Shown in pieces: positions 1 to 61,105 of a stretch of 64,000 nucleotides of DNA. The position numbers and the translations under genes were made by a program. The stretch covers positions 27,755 to 91,754 of the forward strand of contig NW_003202674.1 in the NCBI RefSeq assembly GCF_000006405.1, written 5' to 3'. The notes under the pieces were generated by a model. It made no database searches. It was not told where the DNA came from and saw only the letters and a list, made by a program, of their open reading frames with translations. The stretch comes from Perkinsus marinus ATCC 50983 (taxonomy: Eukaryota > Perkinsozoa > Perkinsida > Perkinsidae). Position 1 is the stretch's first letter, and every line of letters begins with the position of its first letter.

Positions 1-368
1 CGCTCGTCCGTGATCAATTCACATACGATATGTATGTCCCATCAGGTACACTATTTCAGATCTCTTCAGAGAACTTCTTTAGCTAGCACGTGGCAGAAAA
101 GCTTCTAATGAAGAATGTTCGCGGTATTTTAGTGAGAGGAGGAGGCGGTTTCCGCGAGCCATCCGGCTCAAACGAGAACTGCAATATGACGTGCAATTCA
201 ACAGTTGAATTTCAACTGCACAAGTGTCGAATGCGTTACGAGGAATGTATAACTCCGTTACGAGAATATTCAGTAACGATCTATCTCACTTTGTCAATGG
301 AGTGTGTGTGTGTAGCATATTATCATCCGTAAATCACTGGCCATATATTGCCAGTGGCATTTGCCCTT
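1..368. other. Unannotated left edge, outside the inverted repeat
   Basis: No supportable gene seen. It holds a chained odd palindrome at 195-216: an 8-bp stem around A203 overlapping a 7-bp stem around T210, each with a single-base spacer. Confidence 0.5.
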
Positions 369-615
369 GAAAGCGCTGGGGTTCGGGCCAACCCCGCCGC
401 GCTGGGCCGTTTGTCTCCGGCGGCTAACACGATTCATGTTCACGGAGTGATGTCACGAATGTTTCTGATTCGCCACTTCCGGCAACACTGATCTGATTTT
501 GAGTTTCTGTGAGTCGGAGAGCAATACGGACACGAATAGTAGAAGGAATGGATACTATCGATTTGATAATCAAATACCATCCGTAATAACAACGTCGAGG
601 TGGAACAGTCTTCAT

Positions 616-2142
616 AAAAGATCAGGGTGGCTGAAATATTTCATAGTGAAATATTTCAAGAATGTTTCAGTGAAATATTTCAAATATTTCACGGAAAAAA
701 ATTCAGTGAAATATTTCACTTTTGGCGGATTTTGCGCCTTTTTGAGAGGTTCACGTCAATAACTAGTGCTTGAGGACTCTCATCATGGATCACGGGCGTA
801 GTTTGCCCTATCCCGGTTGAAGTAGGAAATACTCCAGTCGAACCAACGGCATTGGTCTTTCTATTCGATAGGACCTATTGCGTGGTCCTCCAGCCTGATT
901 GTACTACTAGGGCGTATCTTCTGGCGGTGATATAGTCAACCCACCCGCAGGTATTGATCTCATCATAAGATTCTCATGAAGAACAAAATAGCCTCAGACA
1001 AAGTGTGCAAACTTTCGGCTAGGGAATACTGAAATTCAATGTAATGGAGTTTCAACGATCTTCGTCTCCATTGTCGACAGCGCCCTCCTTCTCGAGAAGT
1101 CGGCGGGTGCTCCATCTCAAGAAGTTATCCCTGAAAATCTTCTCCGTCTCGGGCGGTTGGCGATAGGCATGAAATGGATTTGTATCGTACTACATTCGAA
1201 TCAGATGATTTGATCACAACTTGTGATTCACAAGAGCTCATCCCAAACACCGAATCCAGTTCATCATTGAAAAGCTCGAATTTTGAGCTTCGAAATGGGG
1301 CCCCGTATTCCAAAATCGCTTTTATCTTACGGGATGTTTGATGATGCGTGAAAACACTCCGAGCGGCTTCCACTAAGAGATTTCCACGAGCCCATAAAGA
1401 TTGGCATCGCCAGCCTCTTCAGATCCGTCAATCTGGCGAATCTTAAGATTAAGACTCTAACCTCACAAACTTGAAAACTCAAAGAACGTTTCAGAAGTCT
1501 CTTAGTCTCAACTTGAGACTTCCAGACTCTCAAGTGTGAGGAGACTAATCTCGAAATGAGATCAAGCTAGAGCTACAGTATTGGTTCTGAACTAAGCGCC
1601 GTTTGGGAAACTTACAGCGAAGAACAGAAGTTGTACGTATTTTTTCCCAAAATCAAATTAAACACAAAGTGAGAAAAATGCTTTAGAACTTCATTAACCG
1701 GGGATCGTGCTCACAGGGTTTGTGGCACGCGATTATCTACTTCGGCGAAGAATTCTGATGTATTTATCCGCATTTCCGCGAATTAGGGAGGGGATAAACT
1801 GATTGGGCCTCACCGCAATCTCAAATAAGTCCTTGAGGACGTGGGTTAGTGGAACGAACTAACGCCCTTGCTCACCTTGCTCAAAAAAACTAACGTTAGA
1901 TCATAAATGTTCCCAAATTGAGGGCGAGTCCGAGGGCTTGAGTAAAGTTTACTCAGTAAACTAACCGGTTCTCATCCTTGAGTGAGACTATCTTATCTTA
2001 GGTTCTCGAGTTCTTTACCGTTTGAGGGTAGCCGCTGATAAAAGATTCGCACCGTCAATTACCAGTCGACATTCCCAGATTTTGTAAAATCCTTGAGAAA
2101 ATACATGCATACTGCGATGATCATAATATGATCTATGCGCTA
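616..2142. other. Left-arm-specific insert, no gene recognised
   Basis: This DNA has no counterpart in the right arm. It starts with a cluster of the palindrome TGAAATATTTCA (632-718) and contains odd palindromes at 1504-1520 and 1940-1962. No ORF with convincing coding character was seen. Its right end is hidden by the assembly gap. Confidence 0.6.
632..718. repeat. Cluster of the 12-bp palindrome TGAAATATTTCA
   Basis: Four exact copies at 632-643, 647-658, 671-682 and 707-718, plus a partial copy ending at 691. Spacing is irregular, so this is not a plain tandem repeat. It lies immediately inside the left-arm-specific insert. Confidence 0.85.
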
Positions 2143-2242
2143 NNNNNNNNNNNNNNNNNNNNNNNNNNNNNNNNNNNNNNNNNNNNNNNNNNNNNNNNNN
2201 NNNNNNNNNNNNNNNNNNNNNNNNNNNNNNNNNNNNNNNNNN
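2143..2242. other. 100-N scaffold gap
   Basis: A run of exactly 100 N, the usual placeholder for a gap of unknown size. It lies at the junction between the left-arm-specific insert (616-2142) and the resumption of inverted-repeat homology at 2243. Confidence 0.99.
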
Positions 2243-2687
2243 TGAGATCCAATGTAAGAAATGTAAGTATAATTGTGAGACCGGCGGCCAATCTTTCAGT
2301 GCACTTTCGAAGTGCAACAGTCACTGGGCTACACAACCACTTTGACTGGTTGACAGTGTTAAATTAGCGTCTTCAGGCACACTCTAACGAAATGATAAAG
2401 AGAGAAAGAGCAAAGAAAATTTAACAATATGTTGCTGTTTCGACAACACCTGCTTAGGTCTAGCCTTCTTGAGGCACCTTTTAGCCAAGATCGCAAGTTG
2501 CGAGTCGCAACGCAATATTTGTCTCTCACCGGTCTGGGTGAAAGTTCGCTACGAAGTTCAGGAAGACAGTCGTTTCGTGAACAGCACTCGCAAGTCAAGT
2601 TAAACGTCGCCAATGATCGGTTTTACCTTCGTTAACGTGTCAACTCGGAGAAAACACGAGCGGGGCCCGTCGCTACGCTCCGGAGTG

Positions 2688-2717
2688 ACTCCGGCGGAGT
2701 CGCTACGCTTTCAAGAT
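2688..2717. repeat. 30-nt hairpin-bearing insertion present only in the left arm
   Basis: Relative to the right arm (about 11095-11115) the left arm has 30 extra nt. They contain CCGGAGT-G-ACTCCGG (7-bp stem, 1-nt spacer) and a direct repeat of GTCGCTACGCT. Confidence 0.85.
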
Positions 2718-2874
2718 GCTGACGTGTACAATATCTCTTGAGAGTGATGTTCAACAACAAATTATCTCTAAGCTCGTAGGTGCTTCAATAGTCCAAGCAT
2801 CGTAAGAGAAAGCTTTTGGTATCTGGCAGATTGTTTTCTAGTGGACTCGTTGTAGGGTTCGAGACAGACGTGAA

Positions 2875-3186
2875 CTAAGTGGTGGTCGTAGCGCTCAGAT
2901 GAGGAGCCTTAGTATGAGTGGTTAGATGAAGTAGTGAGGTTGGAGTGACGGCGAGGAGCGCTAACTTCTGAATCTCAAAGGTACTCGTGTTATAAATCAC
3001 GCCATGTGACTCGGAGCATGTCCCAAGACGGAATTTACAAGTCCGAGTGTCGTTCCGAGTACTCCGACTCGGCACTCGGAGAGTAGGAGCACTTGAATGC
3101 ACGAAAATCTTTCGAGCCCGGGAAGTCTGCTTTTCCGACTTCTCGGACTCGGAGAGGTGAGCACTTTGATTGGCTTCCGAAGACAT
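2875..3186 (-). CDS. Conserved 103-aa ORF in the left arm (uncertain gene)
   Basis: An ATG-initiated ORF ending in a run of threonines, serine-rich at its N-terminus. Its counterpart in the other arm (10622-10933) is the same length with no frameshift, but several substitutions are non-synonymous and the opposite strand is also open, so coding status is doubtful. No domain recognised. Confidence 0.25.
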   Translation of the reverse strand: MSSEANQSAHLSESEKSEKQTSRARKIFVHSSAPTLRVPSRSTRNDTRTCKFRLGTCSESHGVIYNTSTFEIQKLALLAVTPTSLLHLTTHTKAPHLSATTTT

Positions 3187-4145
3187 ACGCGTGGATCAAA
3201 TCAAATCAGACCGACTCGGCGACTGAGACACTGCTTCCGTTAATATCAACGTGGCTCGTCTTGTGCTCTCCGCTACTCTCACCATGCAGTGAAATGGGTC
3301 AACCTTATGGTTGCTCAACACTCAACACCAATTAACCATCAACAGATCGGTATATCACGGTTCCCGCGTGTTTGAGTCTGAGGCGGGATCTCAAACATCG
3401 TCATAGTATGACGTTCATACAGCCCCCATTTGGTTTGCAGGATAATACGCGTACGGCCGTTATGATATGATGAATTGTCATCGGCAGATATAATACGCCC
3501 ATATGTCTCCACGCACTGCGTGTCACGCAGCGCTTACAATCGTGTATCAACTTCTATCGGTGTTTAAGCGCACTCCTATTTGCAGATTTGCTCCTAATTG
3601 ACTTCAAGGTGAACACGACAGCGTAATCACGTTTCGAAAGAATCTTGTTCCGCATACGATAGGCAGCATACTTGATTTAGAACCGACCTCAGAATCATTT
3701 TCTTAGACAGTTGACTCAGCACACTTGACTCAAATAAGCTGACGGCCAAGTGCGGTGCTCATGCGTGAAGTTAACGTCCTCGAACGAGCACCCTCAAGAA
3801 GAAACTGCCAACAAGTCGAACATCTCAAAGGGATTTTTAATGTGATAGGACGGAATATGTGACTAGGAACCACTGGTTACCACTTTGTGATAGATTGTTT
3901 TCATCCAGCTCAATGTTCTGTGAGGCACAGGCGGCATCAACCAGGCGCGTTTGGCGCTCTTATGATGCGGAAACATCAGATACTGGATCAAGGATAGAAG
4001 AGCTATCACACCCGCACGGAAGGACGGTGAGGTGGTGGCTCTCGAACGAACAGGGTCAAGACAGCAGAAATGAAGCCCCCATCAAGTTGCAATGAAAGGT
4101 TACATCATATCTCATAATGAGATTCTCATTCAACTCGATGTATCA

Positions 4146-4328
4146 TCAACAAGCACAATCCACGTCGGTCGGGACTAGACCGAAGAGACCGGATCCACAC
4201 TTCCCAGTTTCCAAGTTACAGCGGAATCCACCAGTGAATGCGAAACCGATACAGGCGTTGGGTCCACAAGATGAAGCAGACACGTAGGCTAGGGATAGGA
4301 AAGCTACTACGGCGGTACGGAAGAACAT
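4146..4328 (-). CDS. Small secreted cysteine-rich peptide (left-arm copy)
   Basis: A 60-aa ORF. Residues 1-18 form a typical signal peptide: MFFR, then a hydrophobic run ending in VSASS. The mature part of about 42 residues has six cysteines with spacing C-x4-C-x11-C-x6-C-x13-C-x-C, suggesting up to three disulphides. The start is the ATG directly before the signal peptide; the open frame runs on upstream without signal-peptide character. The partner at 9484-9666 keeps all six cysteines and differs at a few positions (for example Phe to Tyr and Leu to Trp in the mature part). Function is unknown. It could be an extracellular or effector-like peptide, but that is inference from secretion and cysteine content only. 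The spliced-leader-like 22-mer lies about 285 bp upstream on the opposite strand. Confidence 0.6.
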   Translation of the reverse strand: MFFRTAVVAFLSLAYVSASSCGPNACIGFAFTGGFRCNLETGKCGSGLFGLVPTDVDCAC

Positions 4329-4612
4329 CAATGATGGTGAAACAACTGGTAAGTAGTCCGATCCAACACCGAAAGGCTCACGGTCAAGCCCTCCCGAATG
4401 ATTGTAAAACGTCGTTACCTGCGAAGTCGAGGAATGACCGTTGTGGAGCGAACACGTTCGATGCTCGTTGTGGAGCTCGCTCTGTGAGGCAGAGAGCGTC
4501 ACCTTTTTGTACATGCGTACAGACATTCTGCTTGTGCTTGCGTGCCAGAGTATGAACAAAGGATACATTCCGTACTATTGATCTTGAGCAGTGACCGTTA
4601 CTAGCTCCGAAG

Positions 4613-4634
4613 TCCGTAGCCACCTTGGCTCAAG
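4613..4634 (+). other. Spliced-leader-like 22-mer (left arm)
   Basis: TCCGTAGCCACCTTGGCTCAAG, followed by GT. From general knowledge the dinoflagellate leader is DCCGUAGCCAUUUUGGCUCAAG and the Perkinsus form is DCCGUAGCCAUYUUGGCUCAAG; this copy differs from the latter only at position 11 (C for U). It lies about 310 bp upstream of the copied gag region on the same strand. It could be an SL RNA gene (donor GT follows) or a leader relict left by reverse transcription of a trans-spliced retroelement mRNA. No clear Sm site (AUUUUUGG) follows, which weakens the SL RNA reading. Confidence 0.75.
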
Positions 4635-4802
4635 GTCTTAGTGTGCATTTGGGTCGCATCTCTCCAGCTAATTTCGGGTCATGTTGACATAAGGGAACGA
4701 CAGGGGGCACCGGACATCAACAGCGCTGAGCGCGTGACATCTACAGAGTCTGCCACTCGAGCCTAGTGGTATTAACTATCGACACTACCGATTCGGCGGA
4801 GC

Positions 4803-4837
4803 TACTTTCAACATCACTACTAGTGATGTTGAAAGTA
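4803..4837. repeat. 17-bp perfect hairpin, 1-nt spacer
   Basis: Arms 4803-4819 and 4821-4837 are perfect reverse complements around C4820. The right arm carries the same structure (about 8963-8997) with one stem mismatch, so it predates the arm duplication. Confidence 0.95.
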
Positions 4838-5307
4838 ATTCCGCTGAGACGGCTCCATAGACCGTCACCAAATAACGTGTAATGTACACGTTAGTAGGGA
4901 CAGCGCTACTTGTATTCTCGCTCGCCTCCTATCTTGTTCTTTTGTTTTGTTCGGTCACTCGACCATTATAGCAACGCGATCCGACGGCTACGAAGAATAT
5001 GACCATATGCCTACTATTTTCCCTGATGACCCTCTCCCAAGAAGATCGGCCTCGCTTTCTTGGGCCTGTCCCCCCCGTTGGAATCGGCGATCAAGCGAAA
5101 GCATTCGTAAGAAGACGACCATCACTAAAGGCGTACCTGGGGGCGGAACTATGCCCGAAAAATCGGTTGGATCATGAAGGGAAGGGTAAAGATCGCGGTG
5201 GTTCTACTCGTAAGACTATCCATAAATCTGATACGGTGGCCCTTCGCTCCGGTAGGAACGTGGAACCCTAGGAAATTCTCAAACTGGTGTAGTTCCGTGT
5301 ACCACTC

Positions 5308-5370
5308 CGTGGCATAATGCCACGAGGGATCATATCTTGTCCCTTGACTCAAGGGACAAGATATGATCCC
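5308..5370. repeat. Two adjacent odd palindromes at the inverted-repeat breakpoint
   Basis: An 8-bp stem (5308-5315 / 5317-5324, spacer A5316) is followed at once by a 22-bp perfect stem (5326-5347 / 5349-5370, spacer C5348). Inverted-repeat homology ends exactly at 5315, and LINE sequence begins after about 5371. The hairpins therefore occupy the junction. Confidence 0.95.
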
Positions 5371-5389
5371 CGATGGTCCTAGGCAGGAG

Positions 5390-6613: not shown

Positions 6614-7503
6614 TCACCAGGTGGTGTCAGAGGGAGCTGGGGCTTCAGGCGTGACCCGTTTCATCAGGGTGCTCGAGGAGCCCGTGATACCTTGCAAAGG
6701 AGTATCAGAGGGAATCCGAAAAGCACCATCAATAACCTTGGCTGCATCTACGAGGCGATGGGCCGATCGTCGCGGCACACGATTGCCATCCTGACTATCT
6801 ACCTCTGTGCAGAGCAACCTGTAGGCTGATCCGCAAAGATCGTCCACCACCTCCCATTGAGGCGAAGCGCCATCTCTGGGAGTACCGTACAATAGGGTGA
6901 GGTCAATCCAGGAGTGATACCTTTCGGACTCGAAGGTAGGAAAGGATTCATCGTCGTTGAGAATTCGAATCTCCTTCTCCGGACACCAGTCCACGAGTGC
7001 CTCACCACGCCACCAGGCCTGCTTATATAGGTTGTTGACAGTTAGCTTCGCGCCCCACGCTATGTGCCATGCATTAACATCGACACATATGAAGAGTGGA
7101 ACGGACACAGGCCATGTCGATATGACCTGGTCAAATTCAGAGAGCGTCATTTCCCTCCTTTGCATGTCAGTGCCGTGGAGGTACCATGATGCTACACCAT
7201 AGGCTATGGTCCATAGCTGCCTTCCTTGACCACGACAAGGTCTCGGGAAGCAAATATCGTGTGGCAAGGAATGCCACGTCTGGACAAAATACAGGCCTCG
7301 TCGTTCTTAGGTCAGCCGTGGTATTGATAACCAACAAGTTTAGGAGAACCGGAGCATGGCTCCTGAAGGCATCCCATGTCTACGAAAGAATTACGCAGCC
7401 GGGACTGGAGTGAATCCAAAGCCACTAGCCGATGCCCTTGGTTATGCTGTAGAACCCTAATCATTGAGATGAGGCAGCATTTCCGAAGTCCGTGCGGACC
7501 CAC
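6614..7503 (-). pseudogene. LINE APE-type endonuclease domain (broken)
   Basis: The main ORF is 6614-7267. Recognisable blocks are FICVDVNAWHIAWG (equivalent of the GDFNAHHxxWG motif) and SWIDLTLL (equivalent of S-x-IDLTL). An N-terminal piece in another frame lies at 7312-7503 and contains a typical LQSRLRNSFVD-like start. This domain nicks target DNA for target-primed reverse transcription. Frame changes at about 7270-7310 show it is inactive here. Confidence 0.7.
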
Positions 7504-7645: not shown

Positions 7646-8793
7646 TTAGTCACCAAATTGAGCCGGACAGGCTTGCCTTTCGTGACCGTAGGCTGCACAA
7701 CGCGTGCAGCATACCTTGGTCGCGTCCTGCCTGTGGGGACAGGACGGACCTATGTGTCCAATCTTAGTACATCTGTAGCACATCAATGGCATTCGTGAAG
7801 TCTGCCATCTGGAGCACAGATGATTCAGTACCAAGCGAGTCTTGCCCTCTCCACCAGCCGCAAGACGGTGATAGAGAGTTGGGAGACTGCCAAGACCATA
7901 CTTTGGCTCCTCCAAAACACGGAAGAGATCAACTCGCCATTGATGTCCTTGGTCCAGGTCGGATTACCTTCCTTAACCATGCGGCATACCTGGTCGATAG
8001 TGATACCACGGGCAAGCGCAGAGCTAAAGCAGATAACCCGCGGCCACAGACCCGAACAAATCTTAGCCATGTAACTCTGCATGCTGTTCAAGGAGTGAAC
8101 ACATATGAAACCATGAGCCTCGTCGCCGAGGACGAGTCCCATGCCTCCCTTGATCGGGAAGATGGAGCTGATGGCGCCCCATTTGCCCTGCGAGGGAAGG
8201 CCAGATCGGAGGATGGCGCCTCATTACTATCCCAAACCGTAGCAAAATTCCTTAACCAATAAGCCGGTGAGCTTGTCCAGGGCGTCGTCAAGACGCTCCA
8301 GGCCGTGGAAACAACCCTAGGGCGCTGTCATTTCTCCCAGTGCTAGTGCTGGCCATTGACCTCTCATAAGCTTCATTTCAATTTCCGAAATGTCACTATC
8401 GTGAACCGAGACACCGCCAAGAACGGAGTTTTCGAGCGAATGCACAGACACGTCCTCACACTCAGACTCGCCATCCGTCATCGAATGCCACGGAGTGGTA
8501 CACGGAACTACACCAGTTTGAGAATTTCCTAGGGTTCCACGTGCGCTACCGGAGCGAAGGGCCACCGTATCAGATTTATGGATAGTCTTACGAGTAGAAC
8601 CACCGCAATCTTTACCCTTCCCTTTATGATCCAACCGATTTTTCGGGCATAGTTCCGCCCCCAGGTACGCCTTTAGTGATGGTCGTCTTCTTACGAATGC
8701 TTTCGCTTGATCGCCGATTCCAACGGGGGGACAGGCCCCAGAAAACGAGGCCGATCTTCTTGGGAGAGGGTCATCAGGGAAAATAGTAGGCAT
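7646..8793 (-). pseudogene. LINE ORF1, gag-like with two CCHC zinc knuckles (broken)
   Basis: The first intact stretch starts at the in-frame ATG 8793 and ends at 8317; similarity continues in other frames (8142-7825, then 7915-7646), so frameshifts have split the ORF. Near the end are two knuckles of the form C-x2-C-x4-H-x4-C (CYRCTKIGHIGPSC and CTRCAAYGHERQAC), typical of nucleic-acid-binding gag proteins. In a live element this protein would coat the RNA. A copy of the first part is on the plus strand at about 5007-5315. Confidence 0.75.
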
Positions 8794-9174
8794 ATGATCA
8801 TATTCTTCGTAGTTGTCGGATCGCGTTGCTATAATGGTCGAGTGACTGAACAAAACAAAAGAACAAGATAGGAGGCGAGCGAGAATACAAGTAGCGCTGT
8901 CCCTACTAACGTGTACATTACACGTTATTTGGTGACGGTCAATGGAGCCGTCTCAGCGGAGTTACTTTCAACATCACTAGTAGTGAGGTTGAAAGTAGCT
9001 CCGCCGAATCGGTAGTGTCGATAGTTAATACCACTAGGCTCTCTCGACGGAGTGGCAGAACTCTGTAGATGTCACGCGCTCAGCGTTGTTGATGTCCGGT
9101 GCCCCCTGTCGTTCCCTTATGTCAACATGACCCAACATTAGCTGGAGAAATGCGACCCAGATGTACACTAAGAC

Positions 9175-9196
9175 CTTGAGCCAAGGTGGCTACGGA
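9175..9196 (-). other. Spliced-leader-like 22-mer (right arm)
   Basis: Identical 22-mer on the minus strand. It is followed downstream, in the direction of transcription, by the LINE gag ORF (best ATG at 8793). Perfect identity in arms that differ elsewhere suggests conservation or recent common origin. See 4613-4634 for alternatives. Confidence 0.75.
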
Positions 9197-9483
9197 CTTT
9201 GGAGCTAGTAACGGTCACTGCTCACGATCAATACTACGGAATGTATCCTATGCTCATACTCTGGCACGCAAGCACAACGAGAATGTCTGTACGCATGTAC
9301 AAAAAAGTGACGCTCTCTGCCTCACAGAGCGAGCTCCACAACGAGCATCGAAAGTGTTCGCTCCACCACGATCATTCCTCGACTTCGCAGATAACGACGT
9401 TTTCAAGCAATCATTTGGGAGGGCTTGACCGTGAGCCTTTCGGTGTTGGATCGGACTTCTTACCAGTTATTTCACCATCCTTG

Positions 9484-9666: not shown

Positions 9667-10357
9667 TGATACATCGAGTTGAATGAGATATGATGTAACC
9701 TTTCATTGCAACTTTCTCGATCGGTGCTTCATTTCTGCTGTCTTGACCCTGTTCGTTCAAGAGCCACCACCTCACCGTCCTCCCGTGTGGGTGTGATAGC
9801 TCTTCTATCCTTGATCCAGTATCTGATGTTTCCGCATCATAAGAACGCCAAACGCGCCTGGTTGATGCCGCCTGTGCCTCACAGAACATTGAGCTGGATG
9901 AAAACAATCTATCACAAAGTGGTAATCAGTGGTTACTAACCACATATTCCGTCCTATCACAATAAAAATCCCTTTGAGGTGTTCGACTTGTTGACAGTTT
10001 CTTCTTGAGGGTGCTCGTTCGAGGAAGTTAACTTCACGCATGAGCACCGCACTTAGTCGTCAGCTTATTTGAGTCAAGTGATCTGTCTAAGAAAATGATT
10101 CTGAGGTCGGTTCTAAATCAAGTATGCTGCCTATCGTATGCAGAACAATGATTCTTTCGAAGCGTGATTACGCTGTCGTGTTTACCTTGAAGTCAATTAG
10201 GAGCAAATCTGCAAATAGGTGTGCGCTTAAACACCGATAGAAGTTGATATACGATTGTAAGCGCTGCGTGGCACGCAGTGCGTGCAGACATATGGGCGTG
10301 TTATATCTGCCGATGACAATTCATCATATCATAACGGCCGTACGCGTATTATCCTGC

Positions 10358-10378
10358 AAACCATTGGTTTGAAACCAA
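10358..10378. repeat. S-S'-S chain present only in the right arm
   Basis: Two overlapping odd palindromes: AAACCA-T-TGGTTT (10358-10370) and TTGGTTT-G-AAACCAA (10364-10378). The left arm at about 3428-3440 has the simple sequence TTTGGTTTGCAGG, 14 nt shorter. The hairpin was therefore gained on the right (or precisely lost on the left) after the arms separated. Confidence 0.9.
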
Positions 10379-10933: not shown

Positions 10934-11731
10934 TTCACGTCTGTCTCGAACCCTACAACGAGTCCACTAGAAAACAATCTGCCAGATACCAAAAGCTTTC
11001 TCTTACGATGCTTGGACTATTGAAGCACCTACGAGCTTAGATAATTTGTTGTTGAACATCACTCTCAAGAGATATTGTACACGTCAGCATCTTGAAAGCG
11101 TAGCGACGGGCCCCGCTCGTGTTTCCTCCGAGTTGACTCGTTAACGAAGGTAAAACCGATCATTGGCGACGTTTAACTTGACTTGCGAGTGCTGTTCACG
11201 AAGCGACTGTCTTCCTGAACTTCGTAGCGAACTCCCACCCAGACCGGTGAGAGATAAATATTGCGTTGCGACTCGCAACTTGCGATCTTGGCTAAAAGGT
11301 GCCTCAAGAAGGCTAGACCTAAGCAGGTGTTGTCGAAACAGCAACATATTGTTAAATTTTCTTTGCTCTTTCTCTCTTCATCATTTCGTTAGAGTGTGCC
11401 TGAAGACGCTAACTTAACACTGTCAACCAGTCAAAGTGGCTGTTGTGTAGCCCAGTGACTGTTGCACTTCGAAAGTGCACTGAAAGATCGGCCGCCGGTC
11501 TCACACTTATACTTACATTTCTTACATTGGATCTCACAGGCTTTTCAAGTCCTGCAAGTCAAGCAGACTGCCAGTCTGAGACTGGGATGAAAGCACTGTC
11601 TGTGAAGTTGCCCGCATGCCTTGTCTGAGGGGAAATTGATCTCGGGGTTGTAGAGAATTACAACGTGTAGATTATCTCAAATCTCTTATCAATGAAGACT
11701 GTTCCACCTCGACGTTGTTATTACGGATGGT

Positions 11732-11760
11732 ATTTGATAATCAAATTTTGATTATCAAAT
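11732..11760. repeat. 14-bp odd palindrome present only in the right arm
   Basis: Stems 11732-11745 and 11747-11760 are perfect around T11746. The matching left-arm site (about 558-578) contains a single ATTTGATAATCAAAT, so one arm has an extra inverted copy. Confidence 0.9.
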
Positions 11761-14745: not shown

Positions 14746-15177
14746 AAAGAGAAACTCAGAACGTGGCCACTCGCATTCGGCTCCAGCAGGAGCCTCCACC
14801 TAAGGTAAACGGATTTCAAAGGTAAATAATAACGAGCCCGGCTCGTCGAGCCGGAGTGCTCACGCATCAGAAATTGTAGGTTTTACTCGAACTCAAATCT
14901 GAACGGTTATTCACACAAGTCGTATTATTCTCCCCTCTAACACTTATCCTACTTTCTACCAAATGTGTTCATCGTAGTGTTGTCCTAGCTAATACCACAG
15001 AGATGTCAGTAGCTAAGTGAGGTCACATCGCGGACCATACATCAAATCTGACCACCCTTATCGGCAATTATACTTGACGTTGTACTACGACTCTCAAAAA
15101 CATACCACAACTATAACGGTGAGGTCCTCAACGTTGTGCCTAGAACACGAACAACTATCCCTTACAATAACGCCCAG

Positions 15178-17490: not shown

Positions 17491-17499
17491 GTAATCCTT

Positions 17500-17556
17500 C
17501 TTGTTAGTTTTTGAGTATTTGAAATACTCAAAAACTAACAAGAAATACTGTATTTC
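17500..17556. repeat. 21-bp odd palindrome followed by a 7-bp one
   Basis: Stems 17500-17520 and 17522-17542 are perfect around G17521. GAAATAC-T-GTATTTC (17542-17556) follows directly, re-using the GAAATAC word. Confidence 0.95.
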
Positions 17557-17565
17557 TACCCGAAG

Positions 17566-34565: not shown

Positions 34566-34873
34566 TCAGCCACCCGAAATAGTAACCGTACCTGATGGCG
34601 AAGACTCAATCGCCATTCTCAATATCGTAAAGCCTTTCCGAAGAGAGTCTCTTCAAGAGACGTAAAATAAAAAATATATTTTTCATATATTAACCAACGC
34701 AACAAACCCTGTTGTAGTCGACACATACTGCTCAGCAGTTCACTTCGATGAAGTAGTACTCGCCAATTCTCAACCACACTAGACCCGTACAGAATTGGCG
34801 TACAATATCATCACAACAGTAATCGTATAAAGGGAATAGAACCAGCAGATTCAACTCGAATCGCTCTTCAACA

Positions 34874-40402: not shown

Positions 40403-40424
40403 CCTGTCTGAGACAGGCTGTCTC
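40403..40424. repeat. S-S'-S odd palindrome chain
   Basis: CCTGTCT-G-AGACAGG overlaps GAGACAG-G-CTGTCTC: two 7-bp perfect stems, each with a 1-nt spacer. Confidence 0.9.
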
Positions 40425-47143: not shown

Positions 47144-47202
47144 ACTCCGTCATCGGCTAAGCGCAGCTCCACAGTGGAGCTGCGCTTGACCGATGATGAG
47201 TC
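47144..47202. repeat. Long imperfect odd palindrome
   Basis: A perfect 14-bp core (47159-47172 / 47174-47187, spacer A47173) extends outward to about 30 bp with a few mismatches. Confidence 0.9.
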
Positions 47203-47280
47203 TGTGGAGCCTCCACTCAACTTGACATGGAACGTGGAAGTAAGGAGTGCAGATTAGAAGTGCTGATTACGAGCTGCGCA

Positions 47281-47302
47281 CGCCTTAGTAAGGCGGCCTT
47301 AC
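47281..47302. repeat. S-S'-S odd palindrome chain
   Basis: CGCCTTA-G-TAAGGCG overlaps GTAAGGC-G-GCCTTAC, both with perfect 7-bp stems. Confidence 0.9.
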
Positions 47303-47701
47303 TACGACGCTTTAGTACACACCATTAGTGGTAATTCGAGTCACTCGAGTCGAGTATGTGGATTGCATCTCGAGCGCGCAATGAAGACCTGCAAACACTC
47401 GAGTGCTCGAGGAAGACGCCCAACCACCATGCGTTATGATACTTGACGTATCGCAACATGACACACTCAAAACCTCAGACAATAACAGCCCAAGTCGACT
47501 GAACTTCTCACTATAATAGTGGAAACTCTAACTTGAGAGTCGCAAGTTGAGACTCATTCTAGCGTGCTGCACAACTTTGCGCCACACGGGATAATAATGG
47601 GTTCCCCATTATGGGTGTTGGTTCGCTTACGCTACGCTCACAGGTTACACCTGTGGTTCCCACTGCGCCCTAGTTTCCTCTCTGTAGCTTTTCCATCCAT
47701 A

Positions 47702-47724
47702 GGCACCACTGGTGCCGCACCAGT
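47702..47724. repeat. S-S'-S odd palindrome chain
   Basis: GGCACCA-C-TGGTGCC overlaps ACTGGTGC-C-GCACCAGT (7- and 8-bp stems). Confidence 0.9.
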
Positions 47725-49388: not shown

Positions 49389-49411
49389 AGTCGGGGGCCC
49401 CGACTCGGGGC
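49389..49411. repeat. S-S'-S odd palindrome chain
   Basis: AGTCGGGG-G-CCCCGACT overlaps GCCCCGA-C-TCGGGGC. Confidence 0.9.
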
Positions 49412-49750: not shown

Positions 49751-49773
49751 CCGTGCTCAGAGCACGGTGCTCT
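49751..49773. repeat. S-S'-S odd palindrome chain
   Basis: CCGTGCTC-A-GAGCACGG overlaps AGAGCAC-G-GTGCTCT. Confidence 0.9.
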
Positions 49774-51523: not shown

Positions 51524-51958
51524 TCAGTCTTCATATGGGCAGTCTTGAAGATTGCCCAAAGAAGACTGAGTCTTCTTTAGTAAACCTGCATGTACCTTCC
51601 CACTCCACTTTTGACATATTTCTCGCTCCAGGTGCATTCGGTTTCCCCAACATAATGTTGGCAACATTGGGGAAGCATTCGCACACACCTCTGCAAGAAG
51701 CTCTGCCTCTAGATTCTTAGCCAGAAAGGTAGAGAATGCCTGATGATCTTCCATCTTGACCTCATCATGAGTAGGAGAAGATTGTAACAGTCTCATGCAT
51801 AACAGCATTCGCTGACGATAACGTCGATCAAACAACTGTGCTTTACCAAAACCGTGTTTATTTGATATTGAGGCAATCCCCGCAGCATACTCACAGACAT
51901 GCATCAAGTCACCCTTACCCTCAAAGACATATATAGCGAAGGCCCACCGCAACATCAA
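51524..51958 (-). pseudogene. Retroelement gag-like ORF, second part
   Basis: A 144-codon frame with MHVCEYAAGIASISNKHGFG and AQLFDRRYRQRMLLCMRLLQ, a pattern common in gag proteins of DIRS/Ty3-type elements. It probably continues the ORF at 52014-52487; an S-S'-S chain (52012-52034) lies exactly between them. Two more odd palindromes (51558-51578 and 51647-51668) lie inside it. Confidence 0.4.
51647..51668. repeat. S-S'-S odd palindrome chain
   Basis: CCAACAT-A-ATGTTGG overlaps AATGTTG-G-CAACATT inside the gag-like ORF. A separate 10-bp stem with a G spacer is at 51558-51578. Confidence 0.9.
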
Positions 51959-52011: not shown

Positions 52012-52034
52012 CTCTACGCCGTAGAGTCTACGGC
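52012..52034. repeat. S-S'-S odd palindrome chain at an ORF break
   Basis: CTCTACG-C-CGTAGAG overlaps GCCGTAGA-G-TCTACGGC. The stop codon of the minus ORF 52014-52487 is made by this sequence. Confidence 0.9.
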
Positions 52035-52487
52035 TTGACCATCTGGAGTGAACTGTATAACAGACTTGCAGGCCGACGCGGTGATCTCAGGATTAGCTTC
52101 AAATTCAATAAATGCATATCTTTCTCGAGACAAGACCACCGCAACAAGCGGAATAGGAACCAGTTCATTATGAGGTGAACAACAAAAAAACTGTGCCGCT
52201 GACGCGAGTATCTTACCCACGAAAAACTTCGCCTTCACAATATCCTCTTTTTGAGAAGCAGAAGCAATCAATGCAGCACTGAGTCTTGCTCTTCTCAGTC
52301 TCACAGCGATAACATCAGCCCGAGGCGGTTCAGCATCATTGTCCAATACGGCACCCATAGCGACAGCACAAGCATCTACCATTTCCCCCAACAATTCGGC
52401 ATCATCAAACGCTGCCTTCAACGTTCTCCAAGAGTCGGCCGAAAAGGGTGGTTGAGTTGATGACTCAACTATGGTCTCTGAGACCAT
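52014..52487 (-). pseudogene. Retroelement gag-like ORF, first part
   Basis: A 157-codon frame with ADSWRTLKAAFDDAELLGEM and VRLRRARLSAALIASASQ, helical like retroelement capsid proteins. Its apparent start lies inside a 19-bp hairpin (52460-52498) and its stop inside a chained palindrome, so both ends may be secondary. No zinc knuckle seen. Confidence 0.4.
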
Positions 52488-52563
52488 AGTTGAGTCATTT
52501 AATGACTGAGTTAATAACTAAATAATTTAGTTAATGACCTGAGTTAATGACTGTCATTAACTC
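52460..52563. repeat. Cluster of odd palindromes
   Basis: A 19-bp perfect stem (52460-52478 / 52480-52498, spacer T52479), then TAACTAAA-TAA-TTTAGTTA (52514-52532), then an 11-bp stem (52541-52551 / 52553-52563, spacer T52552). All share the word ATGACT/AGTCAT/AGTTA. Confidence 0.95.
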
Positions 52564-53082: not shown

Positions 53083-53129
53083 GACTAACCAACCACTATC
53101 ACAACTGTTGTGGTAGTGGTTGGTTAGTC
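53083..53129. repeat. 23-bp odd palindrome
   Basis: 53083-53105 and 53107-53129 pair around T53106 with a single mismatch. Confidence 0.95.
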
Positions 53130-53704: not shown

Positions 53705-53726
53705 ACGTAAAGTTTACGTCGTAAAC
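53705..53726. repeat. S-S'-S odd palindrome chain
   Basis: ACGTAAA-G-TTTACGT overlaps GTTTACG-T-CGTAAAC. Confidence 0.9.
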
Positions 53727-53795: not shown

Positions 53796-53820
53796 CACTG
53801 TTCAGTGAACAGTGTTCACT
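53796..53820. repeat. S-S'-S odd palindrome chain
   Basis: CACTGTTCA-G-TGAACAGTG (9 bp) overlaps AGTGAACA-G-TGTTCACT (8 bp). Confidence 0.9.
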
Positions 53821-54480
53821 AATCGGTCCCATTCCACACGATCAGAGGCATGGGCATTGAGATCCACGTTGAACATCTCAACTGGGATACGATGCGTGAG
53901 TCACGCCGCGTGACAGAGTGTACCGTACCGTTGTAAGCTTTCATCACTCGGCCAACAACATCATCAGGCGACAGACTTGGATCATCAGCCATTGAAGAAC
54001 GCATCCACAGCCGTACCGTACGATGTAGGGACTCGATCATGCCATTCGACGGACATATGGCGCAGTGAACAGTCAGATAACGTCCGGTGAATCACAGTTC
54101 AAGAATGATACGCCATTATCCGTCAGAAGAGATTGCAGACGTTTACCGATGGCACGCCAGACTTCTTCAAAGGCATTAGTGACAGAAGTAACATCTTCAC
54201 CATCGATTCTGCACAAGCAGGCGAATTTAGATAAAACGCACTGCTGTGTTAAGTAAGGTACTCCAGGTAGTAGGTAGACAACGTCACGTTGTCAACGTGT
54301 GCACATACAATCGACCAAGGTGTCGCACTTCCGGGCAAGCCCGGAGATAAGAGACCAATATCGTGCTTTACCAACAGACGTTTGGTCTTGCGCGCACAAG
54401 TATCACAACTATACCTGCATGGCATAATGGTCCATGCACTGAATGGACCAGCTCGGCGATCAACTAGCCAGGTAGGACGG
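53819..54480 (-). pseudogene. LTR-retroelement integrase (broken)
   Basis: On the minus strand: a Cys-x2-Cys zinc-binding remnant (CRYSCDTCARKTKRLL) with GLLSPGLPGSATPWSIV, then IGKRLQSLLTDNGVSFLNC, the second catalytic aspartate motif (TDNGxxF), then MIESLHRTVRLWMRSS, equivalent of the NGxxE-R/H block. Stops and frame changes show it is dead. The upstream RNase H of the same orientation lies at 59020-59803, beyond an inserted LINE. The class is consistent with Ty3/Gypsy-type order RT-RH-IN. Confidence 0.7.
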
Positions 54481-54893
54481 GTACCACAACCTCCTTCCCT
54501 TGATAGTCAGCATAGTATCGCCGTACCAAGACGGCGATGTAGTCGATCTCGAAGCTTATGGCGACTTGTTGTAGATCAACTGGAATGACTTCAGGAAACG
54601 ATCGTTCGTGTCTCAGTGAACGTCGTACTCTGAAAAGGACCTCATCGTCATGCTGAGCTTCAACTACCACCCCAAGGTCGAGGACAAGCTCGTCACCGAG
54701 AAGTCTAGTAGTCGCACCAGCACATCCCACTCCCGTCCACAAGTTCATCTCCGAAGTCTTCTAAGTGGGCGGCTGGGATTAGTAGCTGTATACAGTCACA
54801 TGGCCAGCCAGTGGTGTACAGTGAAGCTAATTGATATTGTCCTGGCCAGACGGTATCATCTACCGGAGAATGGCACCCCCTTAGGCATAACTT

Positions 54894-56213
54894 ATGCCGC
54901 ATAAGGTCATGAGCGCTTGTAATGAGAATGAACAAGATAGGGTGCAGCCCCGTTATACGGCTGCGGTTAGGAAGGACCCCGTTTACGTGATCCAAAAGCC
55001 GTACTATAAAAGTACTGCTGAGGAGATGGAGTTGAAGGTGGTTCACTTCAACGCTGATGGTGCAAAACCAAAGCTACGGGAGACTCATCAGCTTATGTTG
55101 AAGTCGACTTGTGATGTTCTATGCATTCAAGAAGCAAAGCTTGGTGGTGGGGTAACTGATGGTAATCTCAAGCTAACAGGCTACGATCATGAACGGCGCG
55201 ATAGGTCTGGTAGTGCAAGCCGGGGTGGGGGACTCCTGACATATGTGTAAGACAAGATCAAGTATGATAGGCTATTGCTGGATGAGGATGACGGGAGTGG
55301 TGTAGGTGAAGGTTTAGATACAGAACTGTTGGTGGTGATGGTTTGGAAGGCGGGTAGGAGTTTTGTTGTGCCGAATATCTATCATTCCCCCTCGATAGCT
55401 CGCATCAATGTAGACTCATTGGACACTGTCCAGTGTGAGCTTCAGGAGTCTGAAAGTGTTATCTGGTGTGGTGATCTTAATGCAAAGTCACTACCTTGAA
55501 GTGGTGGTAGAAATGAGAATAGTTGTCGTGGGTTGCAGCTGGAAGAATGGATGAGTGATAGGTGCCATGTTTGTGTGAATAATGGAGATGTGACATATGT
55601 CTGTCGCCGTCTCGGTGCCAGTCATGGAGTCATTGATCTATGTATTGTAGACTGAGAGCTAGCCGCATGCTGCGAATGGTCGGTTTTCTGGGATGTGGGT
55701 GGCAGTGATCATCGTCCTTGCTTCTTGACAGTATCTGGTCTCAATAAGCTTGTATCTGAGCCGAAGCCTCGTTGGAATGTTGATAAGGACGATTGGGATC
55801 TCTTTGCGGAGGTGTTCGAGTCAAAAATTGGGGATTCTAAACCCACGGGGAATGTTGATAGAGATTTTGTTACGTATCGCAGGGCTATGACATTGAGAGC
55901 GATCCCGCGTGGCAAGGTTTTCAATTACTCCGCCTCCTATAAGGACCCTGAAGTTCGTGAGGCTGTCTCTAAGAGACAGAGCGCCAGTGAAGCTTATAGA
56001 TTAAATCCTACAGTAGAAAATCATGCTGCCGATAAGAAGGCTAGGGAAAGGGCAGAGAGGCTAACATGCAAGGCTCAGACATGTGAGTGGAGGACGTTTC
56101 TGCTTGATGTTGGCCCAACTACCCCTACCACTGAACTGTGGCATGCGCTGAAGGGTATACAGGCAAAGAGAGACTACAAGTGCCCGGGAAGAAATATCTT
56201 TTGCGTGGTGAGA
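54894..56213 (+). pseudogene. LINE APE-type endonuclease (broken)
   Basis: Pieces: 54894-55250 (ELKVVHFNADGAKPKL, CIQEAKLGGG: the N and QE metal-binding blocks), 55275-55499 (VIWCGDLNAKS, the GDxNA block), and 55500-56213 (ASHGVIDLCIVD, then GGSDHRPC, the catalytic SDH). Stops at 55250, 55499 and about 55651 interrupt it. The segment after SDHRP is the linker to the RT. Confidence 0.8.
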
Positions 56214-56649: not shown

Positions 56650-56713
56650 AGCGGACTCTTCAAGGCTTGAAGAGTCCGCTTGACGAGTCTTGCTTGAAGT
56701 TCAAGCAAGACTC
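56650..56713. repeat. Two adjacent odd palindromes inside the RT ORF
   Basis: A 15-bp stem (56650-56664 / 56666-56680, spacer G56665) and a 14-bp stem (56685-56698 / 56700-56713, spacer G56699), only 4 nt apart. RT similarity breaks here. Confidence 0.95.
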
Positions 56714-57672
56714 ACCTTTCGTTCAGAAAACGCGAACCCTCCTATCCTTGGTAGTCGAGCGGCATACAGGCCTTGTCACAACACTGAAGATCTACTCATG
56801 AGAGGCCTTCATTTCGTTCATGAATGTTATCAAGGCTCTGCATGTGAAGCGATTGTTGGAGTAGCAGTTGATATGTCCAAGGTCTTTGACACTGCCTGGG
56901 TCCAGAAATTGACGCTGATACTCAGAGGGGTTGGTATACGTGGCAGGCTCTTGGTATGGTTGAATGACTTCTTGAAACATAGGAGGTTTCGTGTACACTG
57001 TGGGAACTCTGTGAGCGAGACTATGCGGCCGAATTGTGGTACACCTCAAGGAAGTGTGGTTTTACCATGGTTATTTGCTGTATTGGTCTCTCTGAGAGAC
57101 TCTCTCAGCTCCAAGATATTCTGGGTGAAAACTGTCTAGTGCTGCAATTTGCGGATGATATCTTGCTGTTGGTTAAATCTGAATCAAGAACCGGACCAGA
57201 GAGTCTGATGCAGACAGCTTTGAATCGTCTGCAAAGTCTTCGGAACAATCGTCTGCGGAGCTGGGCAGACGGCTTGAAGCTTACTATTAACGCTCTTAAG
57301 ACCCAGTGCATCGCTTTCACGCTTGGAAATGCCAAGTTCTTACCGAAGTTGTCTTTGTATGGTCAGCAGCTGAAATGTAAACCGACGCTAAGGTATCTGG
57401 GTATAATCCTAGATTCAGGCCTGAGCTGTCGGGCAAACGTTTATGCCCCGGTGGGTAATCTCAAGGCTAGGTTGAATCTCGTGCGTGCGGTCGCGGGGGC
57501 GAATTTTGGTCGCTCGGCAGCTGTGATTAGGTCTACGTATCAAGCAGTAGTGGAGTCTAGGATGAGATATACGTTATGCACTCAAGTTGCTGCTAGCGTG
57601 AGAGTGCTAGTTAAATTTCTGGTGCGAGACTTATTACTGGGTTGCCGAAACAAACTCCTGCTGAGTCAGCAC

Positions 57673-57699
57673 AACCAAGTCAGCAGTGCTGACTTGGTT
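57673..57699. repeat. 13-bp odd palindrome in the RT C-terminal region
   Basis: AACCAAGTCAGCA-G-TGCTGACTTGGTT, perfect. It does not break the reading frame here. Confidence 0.95.
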
Positions 57700-57870
57700 C
57701 TGCGTGAGTCTGGACTGAAACCAATCAACTATCTGCTAGATCTGGCCATTATAGGGTGGACTCTCCGGGCTCAGGCCTTGCCTTTCACTCATTTAGCGCA
57801 GTTCACCTTGGATGATTGGACGGGTTCCCGAAGACTGAAGAAATGAGCCCCACTGCACAGATTCGATGAT

Positions 57871-58974: not shown

Positions 58975-59019
58975 CTTGAAGATGTCAGTTTTCATCAGCT
59001 GTACCATTGCTCTTGTTGA

Positions 59020-59803
59020 TTACTGCTCGTGCTCATGATATGTCATTGGAAAAAAAACACATCCCACTACGTGGGTCGCTGTGGGGCTGCTGAGCAATTC
59101 GGCATCCACATGGATCTGTTCATCTCCATCTACCTCACAGTAGGTCAGAAGCTCTCCGAATGGAGCATCGACCCTGCTCAGTGGATCAGCTAAATTTGCC
59201 GCACTATCAACACGATGAACAGCGGAGCTTTCGTAGGTCTCAGCAATGTCATATGTAGACTGGAGCCTCCGACCGACCATTGTAGCTGACAGACCGCCCT
59301 TCTTAACGGCTTCACCTTGCATAAATTTCCGATCCACGCCCTCACACACGCATTGTCAACATAGAGGTGGACATGTCCCCCTATGAAAGGCGTCGCCCAT
59401 GCGAGAGCACGAGCCGCACCACACAGCTCATTGATATTGACATGTCGAAGAAGGGCTCGACGATCGAGCATCCAAGATGCATCACGCAAAACAATGAGCG
59501 GGCAATCGGTAAGGGTATAGCCCAGTACAGCACCTATGGTCGCGTTCGCTCAATATTATCATAGAACTGCAAAAGAGAACATTCGACGCCTAGCCGCTTC
59601 AGCCGTTTCAACAAGGCTGCCTAAAGGAGCGAAGCGATCGCTACACACATCTTTGCGGTCCCGCCTGAAAACAGTGAATCCTGAAAAGGCTGAAGGGCGA
59701 GTGAATCCGTTGTAGGGACTTTTTCTCCCACTAAAGCGGGTGAAAGCCTGACAATAGTGAACAACAAACTCGCCCGCACCGGTATCCTAAATATCAGTAC
59801 CAC
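59020..59803 (-). pseudogene. LTR/DIRS-type retroelement RNase H (broken)
   Basis: On the minus strand: ASWMLDRRALLRHVNINELC (catalytic Glu block N-x-x-E-L), GGHVHLYVDNACVRAWIGN (DN block), and HRVDSAANLADPLSRVDAPF (the ADxLSR end block typical of Ty3, BEL and DIRS RNase H). The upstream part (59803-59500) is the RT connection, frame-broken. It pairs in orientation and order with the integrase at 53819-54480. Confidence 0.75.
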
Positions 59804-59825
59804 AGTGGTACTGATATTTAGGATA
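59783..59825. repeat. 21-bp odd palindrome
   Basis: Stems 59783-59803 and 59805-59825 are perfect around A59804. It lies at the N-terminal edge of the RNase H/RT remnant. Confidence 0.97.
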
Positions 59826-59829
59826 TCAT

Positions 59830-61076
59830 AGTGGTGAGAGTTCTACCACTCTTTCCCGAACCGATTCAACTTTCAATGATCACTCTCTCTCCGGTTGCTT
59901 AATGTTTGAGTAGTCAGCTTGCTCACAGCAACCGCAGCGCTATGGACTACTGAGAACCGGGGCGCATATTATACAGATTGTCATCTTTTTCACGCATAGT
60001 TCTTCGTTGCGCGTCTTGAAGCGACTTTTCAAAAGTCGGAGCAACACGAACGGTCTAGTAATAGCTTTCGAGTCACCCTAAGCCATGGTTGTGGACAGGA
60101 AGTAGTACTCCCGAAGTACTGAATGGTGCACTTTCTTCGGGATTCGGGATTCGGAAGTCCGTGTCGTCTCCAGTCCACTTTTGATCAAATATTTTGTCTT
60201 CTGTTCCACTGTTCCATTACGAGGGAGTGAGTTTTCAGTCCGTTACCAACTAGCTGAAATACGCGATTGCCATAAGCAAAGCGTTTGAGTCCATAGTAGC
60301 GACTATAGAAGAAGTATGGGAACCTTGAAAATGAATAATTCTGGCAGTACCACAAGGATAAACAGCAATGCATGAGGCCACAGGCCCTAATGCTTGTTCC
60401 TCTTGAACATGAACAAATACAACTTCTATACTGAGCTCCTGGATAGCATTGTATTGCAACTCGTGGACCTGTAGTAACTGCTAAGGCGGCGTGCCAGCTG
60501 ATTTAGGCAAGCTTATTGGCCCTAGCTGGTCAATACCTCAAGTTGAGGTCCTCAACTGCCGCGGTTGAACCGCGTCTCAATTACAAAATTACCATGATGA
60601 TCACAGGATCTGATTCAAATCATTTGAACCCTGGACAGTCGGTTACTAACTCTAACTCCTGACGACTAGACCAACCGGTCGATTACAACACATATGACGT
60701 AAGGGGATCTCGGCTTGAATTTTGTTGGCGCGCCCTCGTGGGGCGCGCTAGTTCCTTCACTGTTATCAGGTTTCGCCGGAAATTTTTTCCGATTCACCAT
60801 TTCCAGGATTCACTGTTTCAAAGCCTGACTAAATTCATCGTCAGTAAGGCGGAGCGCTCGCTTCGTTGAGCAGATTAGTAAATTCCTTGTTAAAATTCCA
60901 GGTACTCGTAGATAGGTTATGTGAAAATACTACAACATAGGGGCTCAGATCACTTCTGTTACACCCAGTTTTCCCTCTTCTGTTACACCCGATCCCTCTC
61001 CGCCCGTTTCACTTTGCCTCTTCGCCCGTTTCGTCATTATATTACTGCTCTCTTGAAACGCTTCCTTCCTCTATCT
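59830..61076. other. Interval without a recognised gene
   Basis: It contains an odd palindrome chain at 60535-60575 (ACCTCAA-G-TTGAGGT, GTTGAGG-T-CCTCAAC, CGCGGTT-G-AACCGCG), a tRNA-like block at 60605-60685, and an 8-bp GC-rich hairpin at 60728-60748. Confidence 0.5.
60605..60690 (-). other. tRNA-like sequence (pseudo-tRNA or SINE head)
   Basis: On the minus strand TTGGTCTAGTCGTCAGGA matches a D-arm/A box and AGGGTTCAAATG a B box at about the right distance. The T stem does not pair and no acceptor helix is visible. Confidence 0.3.
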
Positions 61077-61105
61077 ATTCTCACAGTAAATTTTACTGTG
61101 AGAAT
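61077..61105. repeat. 14-bp odd palindrome
   Basis: ATTCTCACAGTAAA-T-TTTACTGTGAGAAT, perfect. Confidence 0.97.

Follow-up and report, generated by a model that had tools for sequence, protein, structure and literature searches.

The stretch of DNA considered here (the window) comprises 64,000 nucleotides of Perkinsus marinus ATCC 50983 (NCBI RefSeq assembly GCF_000006405.1, contig NW_003202674.1, positions 27,755 to 91,754 of the forward strand), that is C247:27755-91754 of a 54.46-Mb assembly of 347 contigs, and it is studded with perfect inverted repeats whose arms are separated by a single base, many of them chained into short triplets. A second contig, C228 (66,754 bases), is colinear with window positions 1426-59498, with most aligned blocks 94-99% identical and stretches such as 45.9-49.0 kb unaligned, and may be read as the other haplotype of the window.

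That these one-base-spacer palindromes form a real class, as the original prediction had claimed, is evident both from shuffled sequence and from neighbouring spacers. Perfect stems of at least 7 bp around a single base number 92 in the window against 4.65 expected from 20 dinucleotide shuffles; for stems of at least 8 bp the comparison is 37 with 0.95, and for at least 13 bp it is 11 with 0.0. When spacers are compared by maximal stems, without which the inner parts of spacer-1 stems inflate spacers 3 and 5, stems of at least 13 bp occur 11 times at spacer 1, never at spacers 0 or 2-10, and once each at spacers 11 and 15. Palindromes with no spacer are only mildly enriched (25 versus 13.25 expected for stems of at least 6 bp; 1 versus 0.7 for at least 8 bp). 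The check proposed along with the claim, odd palindromes against dinucleotide shuffles, thus returns a sharp excess at spacer 1 in the window, with exact triplets also present outside it. All 11 of the listed stems of at least 13 bp exist, with two amendments: the one placed at 17500 is 23 bp long and lies at 17498-17544, and that at 11732 is really a chained triplet. The near-perfect hairpin reported at 53083 is likewise there, as a 47-nt near-palindrome that is 93.6% self-complementary.

The chaining follows a single rule. Pairs of odd palindromes (stems of at least 6 bp) have centres exactly 7 nt apart in 31 instances in the window, against 0.0 in shuffles; no pair occurs at any of the offsets 1-6 and 8-13, and one or two occur at each of 14, 18, 21, 24 and 25, while stems of at least 5 bp show a few chained pairs (1-3 each) also at offsets 1, 5, 6 and 9-14. 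For an 8-mer T, the chain reads T1-7, reverse complement of T1-8, T2-8, and 25 of the 31 pairs conform exactly. Exact matches in the window number 25 for T of 8, none for T of 7 or 9-15, and one for T of 6, itself within a triplet. The inverted triplication (S-S'-S) that had been proposed is therefore sound as a description, and all 13 sites named for it are present, 11 as exact triplets and two (2490-2511, 3509-3530) in slightly decayed form; their claimed sparsity in the 12-46 kb interval also stands, given that only 3 of the 25 exact triplets lie there. Across 139 kb, matches for T of 8 with 0-3 mismatches number 40, 17, 13 and 18 against 0.0, 0.0, 0.4 and 4.7 in shuffles, and older, decayed copies exist. 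An 8-mer shared by both sides with its outer bases complemented, scanned without N positions, is found 48 times at a centre distance of 7 and 0-9 times at the other distances from 1 to 59; at distance 7 the other modes of complementation give 23, 9 and 10. Uncomplemented footprint versions proved mostly to be simple repeats and were rejected.

The rule extends beyond the window. Eleven further stretches were fetched, three of them entirely N, and about 75 kb of readable sequence holds 15 exact triplets and none with T of 6, 7 or 9-13. Six contigs chosen arbitrarily (55.4 kb) account for eight of these, and two stretches picked for hAT matches for the other seven. The arbitrary sample, which is small and uneven (6 of its 8 triplets fall in the single stretch L031), gives a density of about one exact triplet per 7 kb; 8 per 55.4 kb scaled to 54.46 Mb would amount, very roughly, to 8,000 triplets genome-wide, with a Poisson range on the 8 of about 3.5-16. 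On C228, exact matches number 29 for T of 8, 1 for T of 6 and 7 for T of 5.

What a triplet adds is apparent from homologous copies. Within the fetched sequence, which holds 91 exact triplets when both haplotypes are counted, homologues with both flanks aligned were sought for each triplet; two further rows at L015 had been excluded beforehand as low-complexity repeats. The 72 comparisons comprise 53 in which the triplet is retained, 14 with exactly one T, and 5 others. The single-T cases represent seven distinct loci (window 4109, 10357 and 11732; C228:62090; L014:90; L014:1771; L016:2314) and the others two, window 2680, a tandem-repeat site, and L015:627, a low-complexity repeat, so that of 9 distinct loci with triplet-lacking homologues, 7 show exactly one T. 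Two additional single-T sites carry a single nucleotide polymorphism (SNP) inside T: at window 34640, where T is GAAGAGAC, the C228 allele GAAGAAAC is 14 bp shorter, and C228:53769 shows the same relation to window 61755. Copies thus differ in the presence of palindromes, as had been anticipated, and since the homologues hold a single T, a triplet amounts to 14 bp inserted at an 8-bp site. Short perfect hairpins can come from amplification, and an assembly or library snap-back artefact had been named as the finding that would undo the class; yet of the window rows that have a C228 allele, 24 of 25 triplets and 9 of 10 long stems are shared with that contig (one unshared in each set), some with SNPs beside or within the palindrome. 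Six triplet rows and four long rows have no usable C228 allele, and triplet row 11739 overlaps 11732. Inverted paralogues that are about 94% identical also carry related triplets (2490/11265 and 3509/10264), and an artefact would not keep to an 8-nt unit, all of which makes this the least credible of the explanations considered.

Triplets and long single stems form a single class. If the left flank was sealed as a hairpin, T should be spelt by its final 7 bases followed by the complement of the base at the turn, and the right flank should open with T in mirrored form. Among 24 long stems (at least 9 bp, outside triplets; window plus L024-L034), 15 have such a T partner within 100 nt, with both terminal bases complemented, and nine have none; other lengths of T give 0-1 of 24 (6, 7 and 9-13) or 5 (T of 5), the uncomplemented version at T of 8 gives 1 of 24, and random positions have a partner for T of 8 in 105 of 19,374. 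The clearest case, 56650-56713, has different stems of 15 and 14 bp, TGAC between them and a common T (CTTCAAGC). The list of candidate long footprints runs to 21 rows, with arms (P) of 0-26 nt and either overlaps of at most 4 nt or fillers of at most 66 nt; some of those with P of 0 or 1 may have arisen by chance, and the 21 include the C228 allele of one window row. At C228:60857, 63 bp absent from window 53668 hold two palindromes with 1-nt loops; in the empty allele the 8-mers that they imply share an overlap of just 4 nt, and this scar, read by eye from the alignment, does not fit the 8-bp rule.

The original prediction had ascribed the triplication to synthesis that switches to the complementary strand and back. 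Replicative template switching or polymerase-theta snap-back, in which a strand folds, copies back and turns again, does yield inverted copies and is reported to create hairpins (PMC8794818), but it would neither fix an 8-nt unit and an offset of 7 nor complement exactly two outer bases, and it does not predict one 8-mer flanking two unlike long stems, as at 56650-56713. The variable copied length or offset expected of such mutations is not seen, the offset being fixed at 7. With the unit fixed at 8 nt, the terminal bases complemented and empty sites holding a single copy, replicative strand switching is not supported as the cause, and is very improbable.

The palindromes and triplets are instead read as excision footprints of hAT-type cut-and-paste transposons, with a probability of about 0.88, because the unit is fixed at 8 nt, the terminal bases are complemented, one 8-mer stands at both flanks of most long stems and empty sites are single-copy. 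In hAT terms, both flanks carry one 8-bp target-site duplication (TSD), as the peak at T of 8 and the single-T sites indicate, and the centres are the complement of the TSD base adjoining the element (15 of 24 against 1 of 24 uncomplemented); further, the targets have an nTnnnnAn-like preference, no remnant of a transposon end is left in the exact triplets, and hAT domains and elements occur in the genome. Exact triplets are entirely flank-derived, and none of the listed matches to the end motif TATAGATGGGCR lies inside the window. The supposition that no named element class has this geometry consequently falls, as hAT excision footprints are a described kind of scar (PMC5873905).

A plausible course of events can be drawn from the letters. 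Insertion would duplicate the 8-bp target T, as seen for resident miniature inverted-repeat transposable elements (MITEs); on excision, by analogy with the chemistry of Ac/Ds and Hermes, transposase would cut one base into each flank and the chromosomal ends would be sealed as hairpins. A hairpin sealed one base inside the flank has as its turning base the complement of the outermost TSD base, which becomes the 1-nt spacer. The host would then nick the 5' strand of each hairpin far from the tip, so that 3' tails continuing through the turn remain; given that the centres are complemented on both sides, the copied strand would be this tail. As both flanks carry T, the two tails would be complementary over 8 nt, and their annealing, trimming and filling would yield the observed product, T1-7/rc(T)/T2-8 with 14 bp gained, no other premise being needed. 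Tails joined elsewhere, through short microhomology or filler, would leave a long palindrome, single or double. Nicking of the 5' strand at a distance is known from Mre11 complexes with Sae2/CtIP, and it fits these scars better than opening at the tip. A search of the assembly for repair genes turned up three DNA polymerase A loci, single Pso2/Artemis-type and Mre11 domains, and a pair of Ku-like pieces, of which one is over the cut-off and has stops within its match; since Mre11-, Pso2/Artemis-, polymerase-A- and weak Ku-type sequences are all present, the gene list does not decide the pathway. A stronger proposition, that hAT excision here is channelled mainly into one outcome, with openings more than 8 nt from the tip, annealed TSD strands, a fixed 14-bp TSD/anti-TSD/TSD insert and thousands of scars, has about an even chance of being right, the apparent dominance carrying a detection bias in that trimmed or perfect excisions leave nothing the scan sees. 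If it is right, single-outcome excision is a major source of small insertions in this genome, and the scars are a whole-genome record of in vivo hairpin opening, perhaps by a distinct hairpin-opening pathway.

Candidate donors are at hand. The hAT dimerisation domain PF05699 has 14 matches in the genome, and on C108 there is an element (L005) whose terminal inverted repeat (TIR) measures 11 bp and whose TSD is GTGTTGAA; other rows of a scan for TIRs with 8-bp TSDs (window, C228 and fetched loci) were rejected, being mostly palindromic 8-mers. The end motif of this element, TATAGATGGGCR, occurs 99 times in the genome against 8 for a reversed control. Seventeen short MITE copies, fetched as facing end pairs chosen from the match list, have 11-bp TIRs and exact 8-bp TSDs in 10 of 17 and at least 7 of 8 matching bases in 14 of 17; L035 and L036 have common flanks and are therefore one site or its duplicate. 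This hAT-like family (TIR TATAGATGGGC) is mostly about 485 bp long, with copies mostly 80-94% identical, on C8, C18, C52, C74, C99, C142, C218, C251 and others. One copy has a paralogue, with 93% identity across the left flank, in which the target is empty and present once (GCGTAATA); this was the one close paralogue obtained when a single flank of each of 3 of the 17 was searched against the genome. Among 70 distinct triplet targets, T at position 2 or A at position 7 occupies 61 of 140 ends (both ends of each site pooled), a weak preference (p=1e-5) shared by resident MITE TSDs (13 of 28 ends), while there is a strong shortage of T at position 1 (A at 8), with 12 of 140 ends (p=2e-7), which perhaps reflects a preference of the donor family or of hairpin formation. 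P, Merlin and KDZ are examples of other cut-and-paste superfamilies with 8-bp TSDs, and a superfamily of this kind might leave the same scars by equal hairpin logic. Such a donor is unlikely: the hAT family at hand is a candidate donor only and differs from the scars at TSD position 1, but the hAT domains, the MITEs with 8-bp TSDs and the nTnnnnAn-like preference, known with 8-bp TSDs from Hermes (PMC10368747), favour hAT, and a hairpin turn on the base adjoining the element is documented for hAT (PMC5873905, PMC1978519).

Several observations weigh against the hAT footprint interpretation or complicate it. In the window, 6 of 17 stems of at least 9 bp (4803, 5326, 52460, 61077, 670 and 52515; 9-22 bp) have no T partner, and 21 stems of 7-8 bp are also unpaired, where about 4.65 stems of at least 7 bp are expected by chance. 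C228 has one match at T of 9 beside its 29 at T of 8; the homologous places of 2680 and L015:627 are no clean empty sites; and at 17498 the 46 bp absent from C228 leave an allele that is not simply one T. Footprints with short P, the usual form for Ac/Ds, show no clear enrichment: at centre distances 1-6 and 8-19 the counts are near background, the highest being 9, at distances 5 and 18. In the resident TIR family 9 of 28 ends have T at TSD position 1, against 12 of 140 in the scars (p=0.002); the resident family may therefore not be the donor, and most scars may have been made by another hAT family. The scars seem far more numerous than resident elements (99 end matches, this TIR family alone counted), and no site with the element in one copy and a scar in another was found when scarred sites were compared within the fetched sequence. 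The relative numbers, together with the background level of short-P scars, would suit transposase acting on unoccupied nTnnnnAn targets, with abortive cuts, hairpin sealing and repair at places where no element ever inserted. An 8-nt stagger without an element does not obviously lead to hairpins one base inside a duplicated T, and this origin is considered as improbable as template switching.

The features of the window are collected in Table 1. Among them, the two adjoining palindromes near 5316 border a long inverted repeat (2243-5315 and 8485-11536; arms 94.6-97% identical, about 3.2 kb apart), one end of which coincides with the turn of the 1-nt-loop palindrome at 5316, which suggests a rearrangement sealed at a hairpin end. 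The DNA rich in scars includes an endonuclease/reverse-transcriptase-type open reading frame (ORF) at 6614-7267 (-) and one with a sub-threshold reverse-transcriptase match at 57034-57846 (+). Elsewhere, a DnaJ-domain ORF (43149-44252) has as its top named relatives proteins of Perkinsus olseni (65%) and P. chesapeaki (61%), the sole two beyond its own protein, and contains the second copy of a direct duplication of about 320 bp (37717-38039 and 43694-44016, 96% identical). An 871-aa ORF on the minus strand (29579-32194) holds a 30-nt-periodic tandem repeat at 30966-31413 and has no Pfam match and no homologue at E<=0.001 among 8000 candidates scored. Positions 2143-2242 are a gap of 100 N.

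Table 1. Palindromic features in window coordinates (strand "." throughout); exact triplets read T1-7/rc(T)/T2-8
Position	Feature	T	Basis or remarks
196..217	exact triplet	ATTCAACT	formula scan; without allelic sequence in C228
1213..1234	exact triplet	ATCACAAG	formula scan; without allelic sequence in C228
1504..1534	possible longer footprint	GTCTCAAG	centres 1512/1527, P 8 and 3, filler 3; weak, could be chance
1940..1961	exact triplet	GAGTAAAC	formula scan; common to C228
2490..2511	decayed triplet		paralogue of 11265
2680..2701	exact triplet within 16-bp tandem repeat	CCGGAGTC	paralogue 11097-11107 lacks both triplet and tandem repeat
3509..3530	decayed triplet		paralogue of 10264
4109..4130	exact triplet	ATCTCATT	one T in inverted paralogue 9682-9689
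4803..4837	17-bp stem, 1-nt loop, no T partner found		palindrome also in paralogue near 8953-9004
5308..5370	two adjoining 1-nt-loop palindromes, stems 8 and 22	unlike T	5316 centre is complement of next base in paralogue
7196..7217	exact triplet	ACCATAGC	formula scan
10264..10285	exact triplet	CTGCGTGC	formula scan
10357..10378	exact triplet	CAAACCAA	one T in paralogue 3430-3437
11265..11286	decayed triplet		paralogue of 2490
11564..11585	exact triplet	CAGACTGG	formula scan
11732..11760	exact triplet, palindromic site, also reads as 14-bp stem	ATTTGATT	one T in paralogue 568-575
14832..14853	exact triplet	ACGAGCCG	formula scan
17498..17557	long footprint	AGTATTTC	P 23 nt on the left and 8 nt on the right, joined through 4 nt of microhomology
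34640..34661	exact triplet	GAAGAGAC	C228 has single GAAGAAAC
40403..40424	exact triplet	CCTGTCTC	formula scan
47159..47217	long footprint	GCTCCACT	P 14 and 6, filler 16
47281..47302	exact triplet	CGCCTTAC	formula scan
47335..47356	decayed triplet		
47702..47723	exact triplet	GGCACCAG	formula scan
49390..49411	exact triplet	GTCGGGGC	formula scan
49752..49773	exact triplet	CGTGCTCT	formula scan
51540..51578	long footprint	CAGTCTTC	P 4 and 10, filler 6
51647..51668	exact triplet	CCAACATT	formula scan
52012..52033	exact triplet	CTCTACGG	formula scan
52460..52498	19-bp stem, 1-nt loop, no T partner found		
52493..52563	long footprint	AGTCATTA	P 7 and 11, filler 33 with another 9-bp odd palindrome
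53083..53129	near-perfect 1-nt-loop palindrome		
53705..53726	exact triplet	ACGTAAAC	formula scan
53798..53819	exact triplet	CTGTTCAC	formula scan
53893..53914	triplet one base off in window	TGCGTGAC	exact in C228
54278..54299	exact triplet	ACAACGTG	formula scan
54839..54846	empty site	GTCCTGGC	triplet present at C228 counterpart
54884..54905	exact triplet	GGCATAAG	formula scan
56650..56713	long footprint	CTTCAAGC	P 15 and 14, filler TGAC
57086..57107	exact triplet	GTCTCTCA	inside ORF with sub-threshold reverse-transcriptase match
57658..57699	long footprint	CTGCTGAC	P 6 and 13, filler 1
59783..59850	long footprint	GTACCACT	P 21 and 0, filler 17
60535..60556	exact triplet	ACCTCAAC	formula scan
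61077..61105	14-bp stem, 1-nt loop, no T partner found		

Among known systems, V(D)J coding joints are alike in that hairpin-sealed ends, opened off-centre, leave P nucleotides. RAG/Transib hairpins turn without an extra base and the TSD is 5 bp, so even palindromes would be expected, whereas spacer 0 is only mildly enriched here. Template-switch mutations likewise produce short inverted copies, but unlike the present scars they have no fixed unit and no target duplication. In mPing/Tourist excision, two TSD copies similarly guide rejoining (PMC4561436), but the site is restored through 3-nt overhangs, whereas here hairpin-derived tails would anneal and add 14 bp. An introner element was considered and rejected, the insert being 14 bp with no interior where the introners described from Amoebophrya are intron-length with terminal inverted repeats and short direct repeats (PMC7789003).

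The footprint interpretation explains a class of recurrent 14-bp insertions. This genome, from a lineage distant from plants, animals and fungi, carries many natural scars that make the hairpin turn, the minimum opening distance and the joining rule readable base by base, and given the simplicity of the formula, scars can be counted in any genome and excision history and hairpin-opening habits compared across species. Both the density of scars and the prevalence of a single TSD-annealed product seem to be new: no report was found in the open-access literature searched of scars this dense, of one dominant 14-bp TSD-annealed product without short-P forms, or of a Perkinsus case. Lazarow 2012 and Yu 2004, both on yeast, may already show such products. 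The kind of excision scar itself is known from Ac/Ds, and hAT hairpin-sealed flanks appear so far to have been studied mainly with few reporters (PMC5873905, PMC1978519). In plants, S. cerevisiae and C. albicans alike, Ac/Ds footprints are flank palindromes centred on the complement of the element-adjoining base, with microhomology joins (PMC5873905, PMC1978519), and for Ds in Arabidopsis the cut lies at the nucleotide flanking the insertion, under a hairpin model (PMC1978519). Arms of at least 3 nt were seen in 66 of 140 yeast footprints, with a maximum of 20 nt, and the longest P in C. albicans was 3 nt (PMC5873905). Ac/Ds footprints are varied and mostly short, whereas in P. marinus one 14-bp product dominates the detectable set and arms reach 23-26 nt.

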